Positions 587 through 54,739 of a DNA stretch of 64,000 bases are shown piece after piece; within the stretch, counting starts at the first letter, position 1; each line of letters opens with the position of its first letter. The notes under the pieces are model-generated. The model made no database searches. It saw only the letters and a program-made list of their open reading frames with translations, and was not told where the DNA came from. The position numbers and the translations under genes were made by a program. Source of the DNA: a virus. The stretch lies in the IMG/VR virus record IMGVR_UViG_3300044684_000224, positions 29,361-93,360 of that record; one strand, written 5' to 3'.

Positions 587-829
587 ATGGGACCGAATCC
601 GCCGAATGTCGCCATCGACGGTGACGAGCTGCGGACGAGACGCAAGTTCGCGGGCTACTCGCAGATCGAACTGGCCGAGCAGGCGGAGATCACCAACCGC
701 TACGTCAGTGAGATCGAGCGCGGCAACCGAAAGTTCGTGAGCCCCGCCGTGTTCGTCCGTCTCTGTGACGCCCTCGACATCCGACCCGACCAGCGGTGGA
801 AGCTCGTCCGTTCGGCGGTGGCGTCGTGA
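587..829 (+). CDS. Small XRE-family regulator (Cro-like)
   Basis: This 80-aa protein is almost entirely one helix-turn-helix domain (ELRTRRKFAGYSQIELAE, then ITNRYVSEIERGNR and SPAVFVRLCDALDI), the canonical XRE/Cro pattern. ATG 587 is chosen over the in-frame ATG 524 because it starts just before the domain and leaves room for the promoter at 527. It is the first gene of the overlapping operon that ends in the Cas12m-like gene, so it may set expression of that locus as well as the lysis/lysogeny choice. Confidence 0.8.
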   Translation: MGPNPPNVAIDGDELRTRRKFAGYSQIELAEQAEITNRYVSEIERGNRKFVSPAVFVRLCDALDIRPDQRWKLVRSAVAS

Positions 830-1098
830 GCACCACACCCGCGCAACGCTCCGCCAACGCCTCCATCGCCGCGCACAGCATGTGGGCACGTTGCCCGGAC
901 CGGGCCAGACGTCTGCGCAACGCGCACGCCGCCCTGGAGGCCCGCATCGCCCGTGACTTCGGCATCCCGGCCGACCTGCCGCCGGCCGAGTACGCGACGC
1001 GGATCGAGTCGGCGAAGCGGGCCTACTTCGGGCGGCTGGCGCAGCGGTCGGCGAAGGCGCGGGCGGCGAAGCGGTTACGAGCGGGTGAGGCGGCATGA
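826..1098 (+). CDS. Unknown protein, basic and helical
   Basis: This 90-aa protein starts at GTG 826 inside the upstream stop (GTGA overlap), so it is translationally coupled. It is Ala/Arg-rich and predicted helical, with a motif DFGIPADLPPAEYATRIESA in the middle and a basic tail (SAKARAAKRLRAGEAA). I recognise no family. The basic tail could bind nucleic acid. It lies between the Cro-like regulator and the Cas12m-like gene. Confidence 0.6.
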   Translation: MSTTPAQRSANASIAAHSMWARCPDRARRLRNAHAALEARIARDFGIPADLPPAEYATRIESAKRAYFGRLAQRSAKARAAKRLRAGEAA

Positions 1099-1244
1099 AC
1101 GCCCGCACCACCCCGCCCGGCATGGTCGACATCCGGCGCCGCCCCGACGAGAGCGCCGAGCAGGCCCTGACCGGTGACCCGGACGACAAGAAGTCGAAGC
1201 CGGTGGAGCAGTCGAAGCCGGCCGGGAAGGACGGACCGAAGTGA
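1095..1244 (+). CDS. Small unknown protein (49 aa)
   Basis: ATG 1095 overlaps the upstream stop and the gene ends in a GTGA overlap with the next one. The 49-aa product is hydrophilic, with acidic and lysine/proline-rich stretches (DPDDKKSKPVEQSKPAGK), probably disordered. No family is recognised. Its position in the operon leading to the Cas12m-like gene is its main interest. Confidence 0.5.
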   Translation: MNARTTPPGMVDIRRRPDESAEQALTGDPDDKKSKPVEQSKPAGKDGPK

Positions 1245-1375
1245 CCTCGCAGCCCAGTGACGACGAGATCTTGGACGGTCTGGCCCGGAACCTCAACCAG
1301 GGTGCTGAGCGGGCCGCTGAGGACCGGGCCACGCAGCGTGCTGCTGATGCGGTGAAGAAAGGGGGAAAGTCGTGA
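1241..1375 (+). CDS. Small acidic helical protein (44 aa)
   Basis: GTG 1241 overlaps the previous stop and the gene ends by overlapping the Cas12m-like start (GTGA at 1372-1375). The 44-aa product (DDEILDGLARNLNQGAERAA and a basic end KKGGKS) is predicted helical. The 4-bp coupling means it is translated together with the effector. Function unknown; no accessory protein is described for Cas12m that I can match to it. Confidence 0.55.
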   Translation: MTSQPSDDEILDGLARNLNQGAERAAEDRATQRAADAVKKGGKS

Positions 1376-3048
1376 GCGATTTCGATCTCAACCAGGCGGT
1401 CGCCGACGTGCCCCATTCGACCCCCCTGGCCGACTACGCAACAGTCGTCTATCAGTACGGATGCCCGCACTGGGCGGACTTTGACGACATCGCGATGGAG
1501 CAACTGCGGTTGGCTCACAACCTCCGTAACCGTCTTGTCGAGATCGAACTGGCACACGAGGCGGCGCTGGCCGCTGCTCTCGCCGAGGACCCTTCCGTTA
1601 GTGCCGCGCAGGCCGCGCTGGCGGATGCCGACCAGGCAGTGAAGGACCTGGAGGAGCGTCTGCTGCGGGAGCGGGTGACGGATCGGTCTCGCGTGGCCCG
1701 AGTTGAGACGAAGGGGGCCATCAAGGCTGCGCGTGCCGCGCGGTCGGCTGCCAAGGTGGCGCTGAAGGCTGCGAAGGCGGCTGCGCGGGCGACACAGCGG
1801 GAACGTCGTGGAGAACTCCGGGACGCCCACATGGCCGCGCTGACCCAGGCGCGTGCCGCTGCGGTTGCTGACGGGCTGTTCTGGTCGACCGCGACCGATG
1901 TGTTGGACCACCATCGGGTCGCGGCGAAGGCAGTGATCCGTAAGCGTGTCGCTGGCCAGCCGGCCCGGTTGCGGTTTCACCGCTGGGATGGGTCGGGGAC
2001 CTTGACCACGCAGGTGCAGTGGCAGACGGGAGGCCCGCTGCCGTCGCCCGCCGCGCTCGCCGCCGGGTGGGGTGGGTTGGCGACGTTGTCGCCGTGCGGC
2101 GACCCAGCGGTGCGTCCCCGGGGCGCCGAGCGGTTCGGCGAGCTGGCAATGCGGGTGCGCAGCGCCGACCATGGCGGGGATCACCGGCTGGTCGTCCCTG
2201 TGATCTTGCACCGGTGGATGCCGGCGAATGCGGAGATCAAGCGTATTCAGGTGAGTCGCCGTGCGGTCGCGGGCCAGCACCGGCTGTTCGTGTCGGTGAC
2301 CTGCCGTGTGCCGGCGCCGGTGCCGTCCCGGTCGAGGACGGCTGTCGCGGTTGATGTGCAGTGGCGCGGTGTCGGTGACGGCAATGTGCTGGTGGCTCGG
2401 GTGGGTGTGTCTGGCGGTCCGGTTCCTGCGCCGCCGGATGCGGTGCGCGAGTTGTGTGTGTCGCGTCCGGGTGGTGTGGACATGCACGCCAGTGCCGAGT
2501 GGCGGGCGGTCCTGGCCCGTGGTGAGCGTATCCAGTCGGTGCGTGACGAGATGCTGGACGACCTGCGGCCCCGGCTGGTGGAGGCGCTGGCCGACGCGGC
2601 TGTTGCCGACGCGGTGGGTGTCACGGGTGCCGTGGTGGCGCGGTGGCGGTCACCGGGTCGGTTTGCGCGGTTGGCGCGCGTGTGGCCGCAGGATCATGCG
2701 CTGGCGGTGCCGCTGGAGTTGTGGCGCGCGCGGGATCGGCACCTGTGGGAGTTCCAGTCGCATGAGCGCGCCCAGATTCTGGGTCGGCGTCGCGAGGTGT
2801 ACCGCTGTTTCGCGGCGTGGCTGGCGGGGCACGCGTCCGTGATCGTGGTGTCCGATGTGGATATCGCTGAGGCGCGGCGGCGGCCGGATGTGTGCCAGGA
2901 CGATCCGCATGGTGCGCGTGGCGCGCGGCGTCTGGTGCAGTTCGCGGCGCCGGGGGAGTTGCGGGCGGCGATCGTGGCCGCTGCGGCTCGTCGGGGTGTT
3001 GAGGTGTTGTTCGCGTCCCAGTCAGCGACGACTGAGGTGGCGGCATGA
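1372..3048 (+). CDS. cas12m: Cas12m-like CRISPR effector (type V-U1/V-M), C-terminally truncated
   Basis: This 558-aa protein resembles Cas12m, the small actinobacterial type V effectors known to bind DNA guided by crRNA and silence transcription without cutting it. Family-like landmarks in order are: EQLRLAHNLRNRLVEIELAH (43-62), a long Ala/Arg coiled region (64-165), VLDHHRVAAKAVIRKR (177-192), RFHRWDGSGT (201-210), LHRWMPANAEI (279-289), RuvC-I TAVAVDVQW with Asp328, RWRSPGRFARLARVW (424-438), RREVYRCFAAWLAGH (473-487), a RuvC-II-like strand VIVVSDVDIAEA (490-501) and the end of the bridge region AAPGELRAAIV. At the usual RuvC-II acidic position the sequence reads Ser494-Asp495. The protein stops at SATTEVAA, before the CxxC zinc ribbon and RuvC-III that follow in Cas12m. 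A CRISPR repeat begins at the base after the stop. GTG 1372 sits behind GGGGGAAAG and overlaps the preceding gene. Most likely a binding-only silencer; the truncation could also mean decay. Confidence 0.88.
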   Translation: MSDFDLNQAVADVPHSTPLADYATVVYQYGCPHWADFDDIAMEQLRLAHNLRNRLVEIELAHEAALAAALAEDPSVSAAQAALADADQAVKDLEERLLRERVTDRSRVARVETKGAIKAARAARSAAKVALKAAKAAARATQRERRGELRDAHMAALTQARAAAVADGLFWSTATDVLDHHRVAAKAVIRKRVAGQPARLRFHRWDGSGTLTTQVQWQTGGPLPSPAALAAGWGGLATLSPCGDPAVRPRGAERFGELAMRVRSADHGGDHRLVVPVILHRWMPANAEIKRIQVSRRAVAGQHRLFVSVTCRVPAPVPSRSRTAVAVDVQWRGVGDGNVLVARVGVSGGPVPAPPDAVRELCVSRPGGVDMHASAEWRAVLARGERIQSVRDEMLDDLRPRLVEALADAAVADAVGVTGAVVARWRSPGRFARLARVWPQDHALAVPLELWRARDRHLWEFQSHERAQILGRRREVYRCFAAWLAGHASVIVVSDVDIAEARRRPDVCQDDPHGARGARRLVQFAAPGELRAAIVAAAARRGVEVLFASQSATTEVAA

Positions 3049-8739: not shown

Positions 8740-9044
8740 TGGCGGACGAGGAACAGGAGCCCCGGCCCGGCGAAGTCTGCGGTACGTACGCGATGTACCA
8801 GAAGCACTACAAGCGCGGCGATAAGCCGTGTCAGGACTGCGCCCACGCTCACGCGGTCTACATGAACCGCTGGCGTCGCCGCAATGGACGGACCAAGACG
8901 GCCGCAGTGCCTTACGCAGTGCTCGGTGAACTGCTGCTGGCGTTGCCGACGGACATGGAGGAGTGGGCGGAGAAGCAGCTCGGCGACGCGGTCGTGACGA
9001 ACGCGATCGAGGCGGCCGAGGAAGCGCGGGGGTGTGCCTCGTGA
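8739..9044 (+). CDS. Phage protein with CGTY...C-x2-C zinc motif
   Basis: This 101-aa protein carries a motif common in actinophage proteins: VCGTYAMYQKHYKRGDKPCQ then DCAHAHAVYMNRW. That is, a Cys, an aromatic/basic helix and a CxxC pair ending in an Ala/His-rich helix, probably a zinc-stabilised DNA-binding unit. The C-terminus is an acidic helix. It is the last rightward gene before a convergent leftward patch. Confidence 0.65.
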   Translation: MADEEQEPRPGEVCGTYAMYQKHYKRGDKPCQDCAHAHAVYMNRWRRRNGRTKTAAVPYAVLGELLLALPTDMEEWAEKQLGDAVVTNAIEAAEEARGCAS

Positions 9045-28930: not shown

Positions 28931-29633
28931 GCCGTACTACCGCGACGACCACGCGACCCTCTACCTCGGTGATTGCCGGGACGTGCTGCCGGACCTCGCT
29001 CCCGTGGACCTCGTGCTGACCGACCCGCCCTACGGGGTCACCTACGAGAGCAACCACGCCATCGGGCGAACGGCGAACACCAACAACCGGATCAGCAACG
29101 ACGGAACACGTTTGTCCCTGGCGCTGTACCGGTCGGTGCTGCCGTTGCTCCGGGCGAATCACGTGCTGTGGGCGACCCGCTGGGACGCATGGCCGGACGT
29201 GTGGGCTCTCCTGGGTCAGTACTGGCCGCTGCGGGGGCTTCTCGTGTGGGACAAGGGCAGCCCGGGGATGGGGGACCTGAACCACTGGGGGCCGTCCTAC
29301 GAGCTGTACGCGTCGGCCGGGTATGGCAAGACGGTCGGTAGCCGGGACCAGAGCGTGCTGCGGTTCCCCAAGGTCAGTTCGACGCGGCGGCACCACCCGA
29401 CCGAGAAGCCGCTGCCGCTGCTGACTTACCTGATCGGCAAACTCGATCCGTCGTCGCTGCTGGACCCGTTCGCCGGCTCGGGCACGGCGCTGGTGGCGGC
29501 GAAGAACCTGAAGGTCCCGGCCATCGGCGTCGAGTTGGATGAGCGGTACTGCGAGGTGGCGGCGAAGCGGTTGGCCGGCGTCGACCCGCGCGCCGATGAA
29601 TCCAGCCCGGACCTTTTCGAGGTGATCACATGA
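28923..29633 (+). CDS. DNA methyltransferase (DPPY class)
   Basis: ATG 28923 overlaps the previous stop. The 236-aa protein has the catalytic motif LVLTDPPYG (Asp34-Tyr37) before the cofactor motif LLDPFAGSGTALVAAK, the beta-class order for N6-adenine or N4-cytosine methylation. HHPTEKPLPLLTYLI is also typical. It stands alone with no restriction gene next to it, so it probably shields phage DNA from host enzymes or serves regulation. Target sequence cannot be read from the protein. Confidence 0.9.
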   Translation: MGEPYYRDDHATLYLGDCRDVLPDLAPVDLVLTDPPYGVTYESNHAIGRTANTNNRISNDGTRLSLALYRSVLPLLRANHVLWATRWDAWPDVWALLGQYWPLRGLLVWDKGSPGMGDLNHWGPSYELYASAGYGKTVGSRDQSVLRFPKVSSTRRHHPTEKPLPLLTYLIGKLDPSSLLDPFAGSGTALVAAKNLKVPAIGVELDERYCEVAAKRLAGVDPRADESSPDLFEVIT

Positions 29634-36859: not shown

Positions 36860-37402
36860 ATGATCCGTGCCTTCCTGGCCGGTGTCGTCACCCTGCTGGC
36901 CCTGTGTGGCTGCCAGAGCCCCACGACACCACCCACGAACTCTCCGGCCGTCACAGCCACTCTCGCGGCCGGGTCCTGCCACCTCCGCATGGAGGACGGT
37001 CAGCCACTCCCGGACCCGGCCTGCACGCCGGGCGCGCTCAACCCGAACGTGACGCAGGCGACCATCGGGAGCACGATCTGCCGGCTGGGATGGACGAAGA
37101 CGATCAGACCGTCCGTCGCGTACACCGACGCGCTCAAGCGGCGCGGCATCGTGGCGTACGGCTACTCGGACAAACGGATGGGCGCCTATGAGGAAGATCA
37201 TCTAGTCCCATTGGAATTAGCTGGAAATCCCACTGCACCGACAAATCTGTGGCCCCAGCCCGGCGGTTCGCCTAATGGAAAAGACCTGGTAGAAGGTACA
37301 CTCAATCATGCGGTTTGTGCTGGGAAAGTGAGCCTAGCCGCAGCCCAGAACGCGATCGCGAAGGACTGGGTAACAGCCGAGAGTGTACTAGGACTGAAAT
37401 GA
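36860..37402 (+). CDS. Secreted lipoprotein with HNH-like nuclease motif
   Basis: ATG 36860 follows TATGGAGATCCC. The signal peptide MIRAFLAGVVTLLALCGC has a lipobox ending at Cys18. The mature domain carries TPGALNPNVTQATIGSTICR, then MGAYEEDHLVPLELAGNP, NLWPQPGGSPNGKDLVEG and a VCAGK...AQNAIAKDW end. EDHLVPLEL/NLWPQ/KD is a known His-Me-finger-like signature in actinobacterial exported proteins. An extracellular nuclease blocking incoming DNA is an attractive reading, but inference only. Codon use turns AT-richer after about 37200. Confidence 0.75.
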   Translation: MIRAFLAGVVTLLALCGCQSPTTPPTNSPAVTATLAAGSCHLRMEDGQPLPDPACTPGALNPNVTQATIGSTICRLGWTKTIRPSVAYTDALKRRGIVAYGYSDKRMGAYEEDHLVPLELAGNPTAPTNLWPQPGGSPNGKDLVEGTLNHAVCAGKVSLAAAQNAIAKDWVTAESVLGLK

Positions 37403-37863
37403 CTCCAACCCGCCGCAAGCCTGGATCAATGTATGGCTGGCCATGGCGCGCGAAGTTGGCCGTGGTGGTCGAACGGGGTGCGCCTGACGAGTGCTGGCCG
37501 GCACGTTGCGGTATCGATAAGGATGGCTACGCCCACCTGAGCGCGTTCGATACCAAGGAGACGCTAGTCCATCGACTGGCCGTCATGGCCGATGGCCGCG
37601 AGATCCCGCCCGGCCACGAGGTAGACCACGTGGCCGAGAGGTGCACCCGGCGCGACTGCGCCAATCCCCGCCACCTGGAGGTCGTACCGAAGCGGGAGAA
37701 CCTCCGCCGCGCCGCCGTGAGACGCCAGAAGGCGCGGTTCTGCATCCACGGCCATGACCGTTCCGACGCCTATCCGGACGGTAGCTGTCGGACCTGCAAG
37801 ACGATCTACGGTCATGCCCGGTATGCGGCCAAGAAGGCTGCGCGGCTTCGGGATGCCGCGTGA
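37399..37863 (+). CDS. HNH homing-type endonuclease
   Basis: ATG 37399 overlaps the lipoprotein stop as ATGA. The 154-aa protein has DECWPARCGIDKDGYAHLSA, VHRLAVMADGREIPPGHEVD, HVAERCTRRDCANPRHLEVV and KRENLRRA, an HNH_3-type core. A C-terminal zinc module FCIHGHDRSDAYPDGSCRTC resembles those at 10773 and 27903. Likely a selfish mobile gene. Confidence 0.85.
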   Translation: MTPTRRKPGSMYGWPWRAKLAVVVERGAPDECWPARCGIDKDGYAHLSAFDTKETLVHRLAVMADGREIPPGHEVDHVAERCTRRDCANPRHLEVVPKRENLRRAAVRRQKARFCIHGHDRSDAYPDGSCRTCKTIYGHARYAAKKAARLRDAA

Positions 37864-37920: not shown

Positions 37921-38301
37921 TCAGCGCAACCCGAGCCAGTCCTTCACCGCCATGCGGTCCACGCCGGCCGCGGTCGCGAACCCGGCCTGCGACCGCACCC
38001 CGCGCGCCGACCGGTCACCTACTCGCACCAGCGTCACCGCGGCCTGCCGCAGGGCGGCTTTCGCGTTTGCCTCGGCGACCCGCGCCCGGGTCAGTGCCGC
38101 ACCCAGTTCGTCCACGACGTTCTCGGGTGGCTCGACGAGCAGTCGGTACGCCACCGTCAGGGCTGTCTCGCGGTCGTCGGCGTCGTCCGGGTCCGGGTAG
38201 CGGGCGGCGATCTCGTCGGCTGTGCGGAGCAGGTCGCGGATCTGATCCTCGGTGAGACCGTGGTCGTCGCCGAGCCACGCCTCGATCTCGTAGCGCTGCA
38301 T
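37921..38301 (-). CDS. Unknown protein with C-terminal helix-turn-helix-like segment (126 aa)
   Basis: ATG 38301 (MQRYEIEAWLGDDHGLTEDQ) follows AGAAAGATTGACC. The N-terminal half is acidic and helical (IRDLLRTADEIAARYPDPDD); the C-terminal half reads ALRQAAVTLVRVGDRSARGV then FATAAGVDRMAVKDWLGLR, close to a helix-turn-helix. Last gene of the leftward cassette. It may regulate the cassette or the flanking operons. Confidence 0.6.
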   Translation of the reverse strand: MQRYEIEAWLGDDHGLTEDQIRDLLRTADEIAARYPDPDDADDRETALTVAYRLLVEPPENVVDELGAALTRARVAEANAKAALRQAAVTLVRVGDRSARGVRSQAGFATAAGVDRMAVKDWLGLR

Positions 38302-38328: not shown

Positions 38329-38949
38329 TCAGTGTGGATGGTGTGCTCGCCGGCAGTCAGGGCATCGGCAGCGATGTCTCCTGTATCCGCCGGGAGAGCC
38401 GTGATCGATAGCGGGGTCCCGTCCGGCGATCAGCGCGGCGTCCAGTTTGTCGGCGAAGCCCCTAGTGATCTTGGCGAGAGCCCAGATCTGCTGGGTGGTG
38501 GTGCCGACCTGCATAGCCGCTTGTGGCACGGACGCACCCGTGCGCAGCAGTCGAAGGAGTTGCCGACGTTCACGGCCGGACAGTGCGGCCCTTGCGCGAC
38601 TTCGACGCCAACGTCGCAGGTCAGCGTTGTGGGCGCGACGGCACCGCTCGCAGCGGCACCCCGCTCGCCAGCGGCTAGGGCTGCCGTGGCCAGAGCGAGC
38701 GCGCCGCTCTTCTCTCGAACCCTCAGTGGCGGCCGCCGTGCACGCTGCGCACCGGCATCCCCAGTTCGAATACGTGTTCCGCGACCCATGCACCGAGGCG
38801 CCCGTCGCGACGAGAAGCCCGCCAACGAGGACACGGCTGGCATACCGTGCGGCCTTCGCTTTCCTTTGGCGGAGCCTGTGTCCGGAGGTGCACACCTCGC
38901 ATCTGCATCCCCGGTTGACGTAAGCGCTCGCACCATGTTGCCAGGTCAC
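38329..38949 (-). CDS. Protein with four GCRCxxC zinc repeats and a helix-turn-helix (206 aa)
   Basis: GTG 38949 lies just behind the stop of the upstream gene. Four repeats of HG...Y...(G)CRCxxC are visible: HGASAYVNRGCRCEVC, HGSRNTYSNWGCRCAAC, HGSPSRWRAGCRCERC, HGSPGGYRRHRCRCPDC. Between repeats three and four lies ALSGRERRQLLRLLRTGASV then VGTTTQQIWALAK, a sigma-70-region-4-like helix-turn-helix. The whole is very basic. It looks like a multi-finger DNA-binding protein of the cassette. I know single copies of this motif in actinophages but not this four-fold arrangement. Confidence 0.65.
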   Translation of the reverse strand: MTWQHGASAYVNRGCRCEVCTSGHRLRQRKAKAARYASRVLVGGLLVATGASVHGSRNTYSNWGCRCAACTAAATEGSREERRARSGHGSPSRWRAGCRCERCRRAHNADLRRWRRSRARAALSGRERRQLLRLLRTGASVPQAAMQVGTTTQQIWALAKITRGFADKLDAALIAGRDPAIDHGSPGGYRRHRCRCPDCRRAHHPH

Positions 38950-38955
38950 TTGCGG

Positions 38956-39312
38956 TCAGTCCTCCAGGGCGTCGTAGGCGGCGCCGATCAGGTCGAAGAA
39001 CTCGTCGTCGATCGGGGCGACGGAGATGATCCGGGTGGGGTGGACGAGCAGCTCGCCGTACTCGGCGTCCAGAGGCTGGTCCGCGGACGGGGTGCCGTCC
39101 AGTTCGACGAGGACCCAACCGGGGGAGCCGTAGGGGATTCCGCTGCCGGCGAAGGCGAGGTAGGCGGCGAGGGTTTCGCGGCTGTCGCAGACGGAGACGC
39201 CGTTGCGGGTGAGGTCGTCGCGGTGCCAGGCGTCGGAGGTCTGGAAGGTGGCGTCGAGCAGGTCGGCGGCGTTCCGGTCGGGGCTCTGGACTCGGTAGTA
39301 GCTCGTCGTCAT
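38956..39312 (-). CDS. Unknown 118-aa protein heading the leftward cassette
   Basis: ATG 39312 has its start codon at the edge of a tandem operator (39312-39351), so the leader is very short or absent. The product is acidic alpha/beta (MTTSYYRVQSPDRNAADLLD, GWVLVELDGTPSADQPLDAE, DDEFFDLIGAAYDALED). Operator control suggests lysogenic or stress-linked expression. No family recognised. Confidence 0.6.
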   Translation of the reverse strand: MTTSYYRVQSPDRNAADLLDATFQTSDAWHRDDLTRNGVSVCDSRETLAAYLAFAGSGIPYGSPGWVLVELDGTPSADQPLDAEYGELLVHPTRIISVAPIDDEFFDLIGAAYDALED

Positions 39313-39351
39313 GTAGATGAGTCTACACCAAGATGTGTAGAGCTGTCTACA
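39312..39351. promoter_or_regulatory. Tandem operators TGTAGA-N4-TCTACA
   Basis: Two perfect 16-bp inverted repeats, TGTAGA-TGAG-TCTACA (39312-39327) and TGTAGA-GCTG-TCTACA (39336-39351), lie 24 bp centre to centre. The junction CTACACCAAGATGTGTAG (39323-39340) closely matches the operator at 9840. They lie between the leftward gene and the rightward gene at 39472 and should control one or both. Confidence 0.75.
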
Positions 39352-51828: not shown

Positions 51829-52325
51829 GCCCGCAACCGGCCGACTTCTTCCTGCTGATCGGCACCGACCCGGTCGGCGTGGGCATCCGCATCGGCGAGT
51901 GGGCCGATGGCAAGGGGTTCAGCAAGTACGCCCACGCCGGCATCCTGCTCGACGACTCCACCGTCGTCGAGGCCGAGCCCGGCGGCGCGCGGATCAGGCC
52001 GATGACGGAGTACCCGGCCGACCTCATGGTGTGGTCGACGTGGGACTTGACGCCCGGCCAGCGCACCTCGATCGTCGCCGCGGCGCGCGGCCTCGAGGGC
52101 ACGCCGTACAGCTTCCTGGACTACTTCGCGATCGCCGCGCACCGCTTCCGCCTGCCGCTCCCGGGCCTGCGCCGCTATGTCGCGTCGTCCGGCCACATGA
52201 TCTGCTCGCAACTCGTTGACGAGGCGTACTCGCGGGCCGGCGTGCACCTGTTCACCGATGGGCGTTGGCCGGGCTTTGTGACGCCGGCTGATCTTGCGGC
52301 CGTCCTGTCGGGACCGCAGCGATGA
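51825..52325 (+). CDS. NlpC/P60-superfamily (YiiX-like) protein
   Basis: ATG 51825 overlaps the previous stop. The 166-aa protein has YAHAGILLDDSTVVEAEPGG (with His), GTPYSFLDYFAIAAHR and SGHMICSQLVDEAYSRAG (with Cys). This order His ... Cys is the permuted NlpC/P60 (YaeF/YiiX) layout, in which Cys and His form the catalytic pair. Such proteins can be amidases or peptidases acting on peptidoglycan or lipids. Position next to terminase is unusual for an endolysin, so a virion-linked or regulatory role is possible. Confidence 0.78.
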   Translation: MSPQPADFFLLIGTDPVGVGIRIGEWADGKGFSKYAHAGILLDDSTVVEAEPGGARIRPMTEYPADLMVWSTWDLTPGQRTSIVAAARGLEGTPYSFLDYFAIAAHRFRLPLPGLRRYVASSGHMICSQLVDEAYSRAGVHLFTDGRWPGFVTPADLAAVLSGPQR

Positions 52326-54739
52326 CCGCCGCGCTGGCCGAGCAGCCCGAGGTGACGGTCGTCCGGTACGAGCCGCGCGGCGCAGCGAAGCAACTCTGGA
52401 CCACCCGCGACCCTGTCGTGATCATGTGCGGCCCCACGGGAACAGGCAAAACGCTGGCCGCGCTCTGGAAGCTTCACTATGTCGCGTTGCAGCGCCCGAA
52501 GTTCAAGGGCCTAATCGTGCGCCAGACGCACGCCAGCCTCACCGGCACCACGCTCGTGTCCTTCGACGAGGAAGTCATCGCCGCGGCACTGCTCAACGGA
52601 ACCGTGAAGTGGTTCGGCGGATCCGCCCGCAAACCGCCCGCCTACATCTACTCCAACGGGTCCACGATCACCATCGGCGGCTTGGACAAGCCGGTGAAGT
52701 GGATGGGCGGCCAGTACGACCGGGTCGTCGTCGACGAGGCCACCGAGATCTCCACGGCCGCGCTGGAAGCGCTCATCACGCGGATGCGCGCGCAGGCGAA
52801 GACGTTCAAGCAGATCATCCTGTGCTGCAACCCCGACCACCCGAAACACTGGCTGTACACCCGCGCACAAGAGGGCGCCCTGCCGATGCTGCACTCGCGG
52901 CACCAGGACAACCCGCGCTACTTCCGCCGCATCGTCGAGGCGGACGGCAGCGAGCGGTTCGAGATGACCGCCGAGGGCCGCGACTACATCGAAGGCAAAC
53001 TCGGACTGCTGACCGGTGTGCGCAGGCTGCGGTACGTGCTCGGCCAGTGGGCCGCGGCCGACGGTGTGGTGTACGACGAGTTCGACGCGAACGTCCACCT
53101 GATCGACTCGATGCCGGCGGGGTGGGAGTCGTGGACGCGTTGGTGGACGGTGGACTTCGGGTTCTCCAACCCGTTCGTGTGCTACGACGATCAGACCGAT
53201 GTCCTGACTGACCAGGGTTGGAAGCGTTTCGCCGACCTCGATCGGACTGAGCGCGTCGCCACGACCAACATGGAGACGCACGTCGTTGAGTGGCAGCGGC
53301 CCACCGACTACATCGTGCAGGACTACTCCGGGCCGATGGTGCAAGCGAGCAGCAGTCGCGCGGGCGCCGATTTCTGCGTGACCCCGAACCACCGTATGGT
53401 GCTGGAGAACCGCAAGCGTGGCGGTTGGTCCATTCACCGCGCCGACCAGATGCCGACCGGGAACTACTCGATCCCGATGGGCTGGGAACCGATCGAGGAC
53501 AAGGGCGGCGACCCGATCTTCGCTCGTTTCCTCGGCCTGTGGCTGGCCGACGGCTGCCTCACCTTCGGTGGCCATGGCAAGAAGCAGCCCAGTATTCGGA
53601 TCACCCAGAAGAACCGCGTCGACGCCGTGCGGGCAGTGATCGCCGATATGGGCGTCACCTGGTCCGAGCGAGTCGACACGCATGGCGTCACCGACTTTCG
53701 GATCAACGACAAGGATCTTATCGACCGCACCTTCGGCATGTGCGGCAAGGTCTACTCGGCCCAGAAGCGCATCCCCGCCGGGATGCTGACTTGGGGCCGC
53801 GACTCGCTGGAAGCGTTGCTCGACGGGCTACTTATGGGCGACGGTTCACCCGAGAAGCGGGACGAACGCGGTGTCGTCATCGCCAATCAGGTGTACATCA
53901 CCACCTCTACGGGTCTTGCGGATGACGTGCAGGCCGTTGCGTCGCTGCTGGGACTGCCCACCACGCGCACGGTGCAGCACACGACCTCTGGTTACACCGG
54001 AAGGCCGATCGACGTGTTCACTGTGCGGTTCGCAGCACGCCGCCGTGCCGCGTTGTCTGGCATGAACCTGACCGCGCCGCACTACAGCGGCAGGGTCTAC
54101 TGCGTCACGGTCCCCAACGGCACGCTGATCGTGCGTCGCAACGGCAAGCCGATGGTCAGCGGAAACTGCCAGTGCTGGGCGCAGGACGGCGACGGCCGGA
54201 TCTACCTGTACCGCGAGATTTACATGTCCAAGCGGCTGGTCGAGGACCACGCCAAGCAGATCCTCGGCATCGTCGCGCCGGGCGGCACGCCCAACAGCGA
54301 CGGCATCCTGCGGGCCGGGACGTGGATCGAGCCCAAGCCACGCGCGATCATCTGCGACCACGACGCTGAGGACCGGGCGACCCTGGAACGTCACCTGGGC
54401 ATGACGACCAAGCCGGCCAAGAAGGCACCGAAGGCCGGTCAGCGGGACCTGGTGGGGCTTCAAGCGACCCAGGCCCGCTACAAGATCCAGGCGGACGGCA
54501 AGCCGCGGATCTTCTTCGTGCGTGGCTGCACGGTCGAATTGGACAGGGAACTGAAGGACGCCGGGAAACCGACGTCCACCGTGGACGAGTTGTCGTGTTA
54601 CGTGTGGCCGCCGGACGTGAAGCCCGAGCAGCGCGAGCACCCCGTGAAAGAAAATGATCATGGTGCGGACGCAACACGCTATCTCGTGGCCGAACTCGAC
54701 CAGGGTCAGACGAAGTGGATGCGGTGGGTGCCGAAATGA
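52322..54739 (+). CDS. terL: Terminase large subunit interrupted by an intein
   Basis: ATG 52322 overlaps the previous stop. The 805-aa precursor has Walker A GPTGTGKT (37-44), Walker B RVVVDEATE (134-142), motif III IILCCNPDHP, and the nuclease-domain start WWTVDFGFSNPFV (Asp278). An intein occupies residues 287-615, then the terminase resumes with CQCWAQDGDGRIYLYREIYM, RAIICDHDAEDRATLERHL and a final HGADATRYLVAEL with the last acidic residue. After splicing the enzyme is about 476 aa. It pumps DNA into the head and cuts concatemers. Confidence 0.95.
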   Translation: MTAALAEQPEVTVVRYEPRGAAKQLWTTRDPVVIMCGPTGTGKTLAALWKLHYVALQRPKFKGLIVRQTHASLTGTTLVSFDEEVIAAALLNGTVKWFGGSARKPPAYIYSNGSTITIGGLDKPVKWMGGQYDRVVVDEATEISTAALEALITRMRAQAKTFKQIILCCNPDHPKHWLYTRAQEGALPMLHSRHQDNPRYFRRIVEADGSERFEMTAEGRDYIEGKLGLLTGVRRLRYVLGQWAAADGVVYDEFDANVHLIDSMPAGWESWTRWWTVDFGFSNPFVCYDDQTDVLTDQGWKRFADLDRTERVATTNMETHVVEWQRPTDYIVQDYSGPMVQASSSRAGADFCVTPNHRMVLENRKRGGWSIHRADQMPTGNYSIPMGWEPIEDKGGDPIFARFLGLWLADGCLTFGGHGKKQPSIRITQKNRVDAVRAVIADMGVTWSERVDTHGVTDFRINDKDLIDRTFGMCGKVYSAQKRIPAGMLTWGRDSLEALLDGLLMGDGSPEKRDERGVVIANQVYITTSTGLADDVQAVASLLGLPTTRTVQHTTSGYTGRPIDVFTVRFAARRRAALSGMNLTAPHYSGRVYCVTVPNGTLIVRRNGKPMVSGNCQCWAQDGDGRIYLYREIYMSKRLVEDHAKQILGIVAPGGTPNSDGILRAGTWIEPKPRAIICDHDAEDRATLERHLGMTTKPAKKAPKAGQRDLVGLQATQARYKIQADGKPRIFFVRGCTVELDRELKDAGKPTSTVDELSCYVWPPDVKPEQREHPVKENDHGADATRYLVAELDQGQTKWMRWVPK
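53180..54166 (+). mobile_element. Intein with LAGLIDADG homing endonuclease
   Basis: The 329-aa insert starts at Cys287 (CYDDQTDVLTDQGWKRFADL) and ends ...GKPMVSGN, followed by Cys as +1 residue, so splice residues are Cys1, Asn329 and Cys+1. The residue before the terminal Asn is Gly instead of the usual His. LAGLIDADG motifs are FLGLWLADGCL and LLDGLLMGDGS. The insertion point is next to the terminase nuclease motif DFGFSNP, a conserved active-site region typical for inteins. Confidence 0.93.

Follow-up and report, generated by a model that had tools for sequence, protein, structure and literature searches.

The window analyzed here, 64,000 nucleotides (positions 29,361 to 93,360) of the virus record IMGVR_UViG_3300044684_000224, belongs to an actinobacterial virus and contains an open reading frame in which short cysteine-rich units surround a helix-turn-helix (HTH), raising the question of what such a protein does for a phage. 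The frame and its parts are:

38329 to 38949, minus strand: four-finger HTH protein, second gene of a cassette, 206 aa, GTG start
38890 to 38937, minus strand: finger unit 1, residues 5-20, HGASAYVNRGCRCEVC
38740 to 38790, minus strand: finger unit 2, residues 54-70, HGSRNTYSNWGCRCAAC
38641 to 38688, minus strand: finger unit 3, residues 88-103, HGSPSRWRAGCRCERC
38416 to 38586, minus strand: HTH domain, residues 122-178, with a predicted small-terminase-like fold (AlphaFold model, match to 3hef)
38353 to 38403, minus strand: finger unit 4, residues 183-199, HGSPGGYRRHRCRCPDC

The four units follow the pattern H-G-x3/4-[YW]-x2/3-[GR]-C-R-C-x2-C (the HG-CRC unit), with GCRC in three and RCRC in the fourth, and with W in place of Y in unit 3. 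Units 1-3 lie on the N-terminal side of the HTH and unit 4 on its C-terminal side; all ligands are present in all four, and the third residue after the last Cys is Ala in units 2, 3, and 4 and Gly in unit 1. A sequence-only reading had described four cysteine fingers around an HTH within 206 residues, and this arrangement is real, with no units arising in 200,000 residue shuffles of the protein. Among open frames of at least 60 codons this is the only one in the window with the full pattern HG..[YWF]..CxCxxC, and the 93,360-bp virus record holds a single copy of the protein.

A degenerate DNA pattern for the HG-CRC unit matched at least 120 IMG/VR stretches, and the finger is present in phages of Mycobacterium, Gordonia, Microbacterium, Arthrobacter, and Streptomyces. 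Among the matches listed, 134 finger-bearing open frames in 124 locus records have one unit (96 frames), two (30), three (6), four (1), or five (1), the lone four-unit frame being the 206-aa protein. Across 213 units, Ala occupies the third position after the last Cys in 80% and Arg or Lys directly follows that Cys in 68%, and the consensus also shows a basic helix; the ligand residues were in the search pattern, and their conservation in this consensus is circular. The same circularity applies in part to a 20-row finger-pair alignment in which H5, C15, C17, and C20, and H54, C65, C67, and C70, are invariant. The unit matches no Pfam or NCBIfam model above cut-off (PF05344, DUF746, scores 20.3 bits on the four-finger protein, below its gathering cut-off of 26.9), and the protein matches the PHROG finger families 14857, 4234, and 34332 with E values of 4e-12 to 5e-10. 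PHROG families holding the unit are called HNH endonuclease, HTH DNA binding protein, or integrase, and GenBank annotators have already named some finger carriers HTH DNA-binding proteins. A literature search at the level of listings gave no recognized description of the finger motif or of the operator described below, and the excerpted passages of PMC11075535 and PMC11797047 do not mention the HG-CRC finger. We regard the unit as common in phages and unnamed, rather than unknown. In Gordonia phage Hexbug the annotated frame of gp65 (L003) does not encode the finger pair located there, and in Phatniss and Button the finger-pair region has no annotated gene.

A Pfam scan of 81 of the 84 finger-bearing ORFs of at least 120 aa matched Phage_integrase in 16, HTH_23 in 7, HNH in 7, Whib in 2, and Endonuclease_7 in 1 (counts may overlap, 25 of 34 families were listed, and several of the integrases look like near copies). 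A control of 81 ORFs, drawn out of the 680 non-finger ORFs in the same loci, gave Phage_integrase in 1, HNH in 2, and Whib in 1; the enrichment of Phage_integrase, HTH_23, and HNH among finger ORFs over control ORFs argues for an association of the finger with DNA. The position of the finger varies, being at 67-71% of the length in about a dozen ORFs of 419-454 aa and otherwise at either end, and in integrases it may be an insertion. The 419-454-aa one-finger ORFs are those at L008, L027, L033, L039, L101, L041, L060, L073, L071, L082, L089, L081, and L011.

The four-finger gene lies between two others on the minus strand, in the order gene 1, four-finger gene, gene 3, and the cassette begins at a pair of palindromes:

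39336 to 39351: operator palindrome 2, TGTAGAGCTGTCTACA, holding a -35-like TAGACA (39344 to 39349, minus strand)
39312 to 39327: operator palindrome 1, TGTAGATGAGTCTACA, holding a -10-like TAGACT (39320 to 39325, minus strand)
38956 to 39312, minus strand: gene 1, 118 aa, start codon overlapping the operator, 49% to Finkle gp31
37921 to 38301, minus strand: gene 3, a 126-aa HTH protein ending GVDRMAVKDWLGLR, phrog_2311 at 2e-10

Gene 1 has no Pfam or PHROG hit, and phrog_2311, which gene 3 matches, is annotated as 'HTH DNA binding protein'. The palindromes are perfect (TGTAGA-N4-TCTACA) and are the sole copies in the 93-kb record at up to two mismatches. TAGACT lies 7 nt before the gene 1 start codon, with TAGACA beyond an 18-bp spacer, and we read these as the putative -10 and -35 hexamers of a leaderless promoter. 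A search in which the gap was set at 8 bp found exact copies of the double palindrome in seven IMG/VR contigs. Beside the operator, six of them (L127, L128, L129, L130, L132, and L133) encode a gene 3-like HTH protein bearing the helix [VIL]DRM[TA]V; the seventh, L131, is AT-rich repeat sequence and has no such protein. The start codon overlaps a palindrome in four of seven high-GC cases, including the window, and no finger unit is found in the six other high-GC operator loci.

The same parts recur in a different order in Gordonia phage Finkle (L134, gp31-gp29), where the gene 1 homologue is followed by the gene 3 homologue and then by a 382-aa HTH protein ending in one HG-CRC finger; the gene 3 homologue (gp30, 34%) has a different recognition helix, TRRTLRLWLG, and the operator of the window is absent, with other palindrome-like repeats seen by eye at the same place. 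This recurrence, together with the co-occurrence of the operator and gene 3 homologues, suggests that gene 3 codes for the operator binder. Its product is the likely repressor of the operon promoter, and the double palindrome and the DRM[TA]V helix likely constitute an operator-repressor code. We do not favor the four-finger protein as the operator binder, since the operator and gene 3 homologues occur in finger-free contigs. Single-sequence scans of viral contigs found no confirmed relative of gene 1 or gene 3, and gene 3 had no match in the phages collection at E 0.01, although Finkle gp30 is a 34% relative; because gene 3 relatives turned up beside the operator, the null viral-contig scans of both genes reflect the seeding method. 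In L130 an operator-proximal ORF (773 to 1378, plus strand) fuses what by eye is endonuclease VII-like sequence to a DRMTV-type HTH. For a family of small phage HTH repressors, the palindrome pair is an operator that can be tested directly.

Adjoining the cassette, and convergent with it, is an endonuclease gene:

37315 to 37863, plus strand: HNH endonuclease, zinc-binding loop region, PF13392 and PF05551

Its proximity raises the alternative that the finger protein and the HNH endonuclease belong to one mobile element and move as a pair, with the fingers guiding cleavage or insertion. Fingers are indeed carried by HNH proteins, endonuclease VII, and integrases, and third-position GC is low in both the HNH gene (0.73) and the four-finger gene (0.70), compared with 0.94 in gene 1 and 0.88 in gene 3. 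However, the HNH gene lies outside the operon, on the opposite strand, the four-finger protein matches no Pfam nuclease family, and its match to a PHROG HNH family falls on the finger stretches. We think a mobile-element accessory unlikely.

Where the four units came from is indicated by comparing them one by one. Within the protein, unit-versus-unit scores are 24-44, whereas the best match elsewhere scores 58-106 per unit, so the units are ordered by ancestry and not by local duplication. Unit 1 is closest to unit 1 of mycobacteriophage Doug gp48 (score 69) and then to unit 1 of the IMG/VR contig L002 (68), and unit 2 is closest to unit 2 of L002 (106). Units 3 and 4 are closest to units 1 (58) and 2 (78) of L151, a 128-aa actinobacterial finger-HTH-finger protein with 43% identity to the four-finger protein over residues 83-204 (E 7e-29). 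At the level of sequence relationships, this comparison establishes the 206-aa protein as a fusion of a finger pair (units 1-2) with a finger-HTH-finger domain (units 3-4). An origin by tandem copying of a single finger is rejected, as every unit resembles its counterpart in another genome more than it does its neighbors, and matches to designed armadillo repeats were taken as chance.

The arrangement had also been called unfamiliar, and this survives for the order of the four units and fails for the parts. Eighteen records in the phages collection match the four-finger protein, none at 80% coverage, and neither the one matching plasmid record nor the one confirmed locus among viral contigs matches over the whole length; bacterial genomes gave part-length matches only, in 5 of 397 and 78 of 345 genomes of two orders. 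Each half recurs, and proteins with five units, or with three units plus an HTH, exist; among the collections searched the exact four-unit architecture thus appears to be new and both its halves already known. In the loci read out from the 78 genomes, the match is mostly a stand-alone protein, ~102 aa long, that combines an HTH with a single finger. This protein (L155-L183, one bacterial order) is widespread, being found in most of the 78 matching genomes, and is possibly a conserved chromosomal regulator. The finger pair is rare in chromosomes, with three matches to its profile in 198 genomes of the phylum.

Nor do the repeats vanish in homologues, as units persist in relatives of each half, although the unit 3 counterpart is sometimes replaced by CxxC..CxxC or is cysteine-free. 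A CxxC..CxxC ribbon precedes the HTH in L137, L139, and L148 where the four-finger protein has its HG-CRC unit 3, and the lack of two CxxC pairs before the HTH sets the protein apart from the zinc-ribbon HTH proteins. Two homologues, L140 and L156, keep the surroundings SRWR.G...HN of finger 3 and have no cysteine left in its counterpart, suggesting that finger 3 can be dispensable.

The AlphaFold model of residues 80-206 is confident (pLDDT 89.3, pTM 0.77, 11 rows), with four helices between units 3 and 4, and that of the finger pair in residues 1-92 is fair (pLDDT 81.7, pTM 0.42, 20 rows). Fingers 1, 2, and 4 are modeled as a short helix, a CRC turn, and a further helix, this second helix being predicted as long and basic in fingers 1 and 2; in finger 3 the second helix alone is modeled with confidence. 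A Foldseek search with the finger-pair model (pTM 0.42) returned no PDB chain, and we claim no new fold; the model does match BFVD phage proteins, such as the Doug HTH protein. Pfam HTH_23 matches residues 125-158 under its cut-off (E 0.03). The HTH had been taken as sigma-4-like, a reading that finds no support here. The modeled HTH (residues 122-178) best matches the DNA-binding domain of the Sf6 small terminase gp1 (3hef; Z 8.9, rmsd 1.4 Å over 57 residues), far above the next structure outside the Sf6 small-terminase family (Z 5.1) and region 4 of SigD (3vfz; Z 3.1 over 41 aa), and Pfam Sigma70_r4 is absent among the hits of the four-finger protein at E values up to 10, a range in which HMMER filters drop most hits above 0.1.

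Since the model also matches many predicted small terminases, the protein could be of packaging type or a genome-marking protein, its HTH recognizing a site on phage DNA and not a promoter. The likely large terminase subunit is encoded elsewhere:

52322 to 54739, plus strand: terminase-like large subunit, 805 aa, named by sequence and not by profile

This gene is more than 13 kb away on the opposite strand, gene 3 shares a cassette with the four-finger gene, and many homologues are stand-alone genes in bacterial genomes, possibly within prophages; we consider a packaging or marking role quite unlikely. By eye, the 805-aa protein seems to hold an intein (CYDDQTD...VSGNC).

The identity of the metal bears on a further alternative, and another ORF of the same phage offers a finger for comparison:

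8778 to 8840, plus strand: CGT-type sister finger, CGTYAMYQKHYKRGDKPCQDC, for comparison only

The sister pattern, C-G-T-x3-Y-x2-H-x7-C-x2-C, matches at least 119 IMG/VR stretches, and among the matches listed 110 of 121 distinct CGT units have Ala three residues past the last Cys, a position that the search pattern did not specify; CGT-type fingers are also found at L029 and from L189 onwards. The HG-CRC and CGT units share a CxxC-[RK]-x-A-basic helix, and hhalign relates their profiles at 95% probability (at most 21% in 20 column-shuffled controls) in an alignment limited to the CxxC and the second helix. At its first two ligand positions the HG-CRC type has H..C and the CGT type C..H, and this Cys/His exchange between sister types points to a four-ligand metal site. 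Such exchange is usual in zinc sites, and each finger probably holds one zinc through one His and three Cys.

A site of three Cys and one His might instead bind an iron-sulfur cluster and, together with WhiB proteins, sense redox state or gases. Association with WhiB is recurrent: the finger is fused to WhiB in two of the 81 ORFs, lies beside WhiB on a Streptomyces tubercidicus plasmid and beside what by eye is a WhiB-like ORF in L002, and two WhiB-like PHROG families (12112 and 22267) are matched by the CGT unit in their C-terminal part. However, integrases and nucleases account for most fusions, and a redox sensor would not be expected on such proteins; ligand exchange of this kind is also more usual for zinc, so we give the iron-sulfur site a similarly small likelihood. 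The CDGSH iron-sulfur domain, with the 3Cys-1His signature C-x-C-x2-[ST]-x3-P-x-C-D-G-[SAT]-H, was rejected as a candidate, since in the 206-aa protein the His precedes the cysteines and the order differs.

Codon-position GC in the four-finger gene is flat (0.67/0.67/0.70), which we read as a mark of recent arrival or as an effect of an Arg- and Cys-rich composition, and not as disproof of translation. The frame is likely translated, because its homologues share it, because it fits snugly between two ordinary genes, its GTG start lying 6 nt past the gene 1 stop, and because third-position GC is also low in the HNH gene. That the frame is decayed or untranslated, its motifs left over, is very unlikely; the flat GC, the lack of a full-length relative in the collections searched, and a longer, 494-codon frame on the other strand are set against a single open frame that keeps every ligand of all four units, has a tightly placed start, and is shared with homologues.

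We therefore favor, as somewhat probable, the reading that the 206-aa ORF codes for a phage DNA-binding regulator, zinc dependent and fused from two modules; zinc binding, sequence-specific DNA binding, regulation, and the identity of the repressor are what we infer from sequence and models. The cassette setting had been taken to imply a regulator, and a three-gene operon, an operator-bearing promoter, and units mostly on DNA-acting proteins are consistent with this. Fusion of the finger pair to the finger-HTH-finger domain would make a four-finger regulator whose HTH reads DNA as the DNA-binding domains of small terminases do and whose fingers add DNA contacts, so that a longer site is read. 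Its gene would be expressed from the leaderless-type promoter covered by the two palindromes, which the gene 3 product would repress, and the four-finger protein would then be made on derepression only. It would be a passenger of the operon whose own target, early or lysogeny-related, probably lies elsewhere; the neighborhood of Doug gp48, which has a repressor, Cro, an antirepressor, the finger protein, and an excise, supports such a role in early or lysogeny control. Counted against the regulator reading are the lack of a full-length homologue in the collections searched, the atypical codon GC, the finger-pair pTM of 0.42, the cysteine-free unit 3 counterparts, and operator evidence that points to gene 3.

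A broader proposal, which we advance tentatively and think rather doubtful as a whole, is that the HG-CRC and CGT units are unnamed, phage-wide, compact, all-helical zinc fingers with swappable ligands, which integrases, HNH and endonuclease VII nucleases, WhiB proteins, and HTH regulators carry as portable modules for reading DNA. Arrays of two to five would act jointly like eukaryotic multi-finger transcription factors, and the 206-aa protein would read one long site with four fingers plus the HTH. If true, modular DNA reading by finger arrays would be a prokaryotic parallel to those factors. With a name for the HG-CRC unit, many phage genes now labeled 'hypothetical' would gain a new annotation, including some that are mis-framed or uncalled.

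Several known systems share parts with the four-finger protein. The small HTH proteins of phrog_2311 are the family of gene 3, its operon partner, and are not homologous to it, and the phage WhiB-like proteins of PHROG 12112 and 22267 carry a related finger, but of the CGT type and attached to a WhiB domain. The Sf6 small terminase gp1 has the same HTH fold, with 16% identity, but no fingers were seen in the match and the gene context is different; we do not file the 206-aa protein as a terminase, as it has the same DNA-binding fold and is not beside the large terminase. Mycobacteriophage Doug gp48, like PHROG 14857 ('HTH DNA binding protein'), is an immunity-region DNA-binding protein with a finger pair of the same type, and consists of two fingers and a C-terminal part; unlike the 206-aa protein it lacks the finger-HTH-finger half. 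That half is found in the actinobacterial finger-HTH(-finger) proteins, which have one or two fingers compared with four, and often a CxxC..CxxC ribbon or a cysteine-free stretch at unit 3. In L151, L142, L155-L183, Streptomyces phage Vondra gp53, and the Eklok homologue, the HTH is followed by [L]DxALxxGRDPxxxHG..Y...CRCPxC, as it is in the 206-aa protein.
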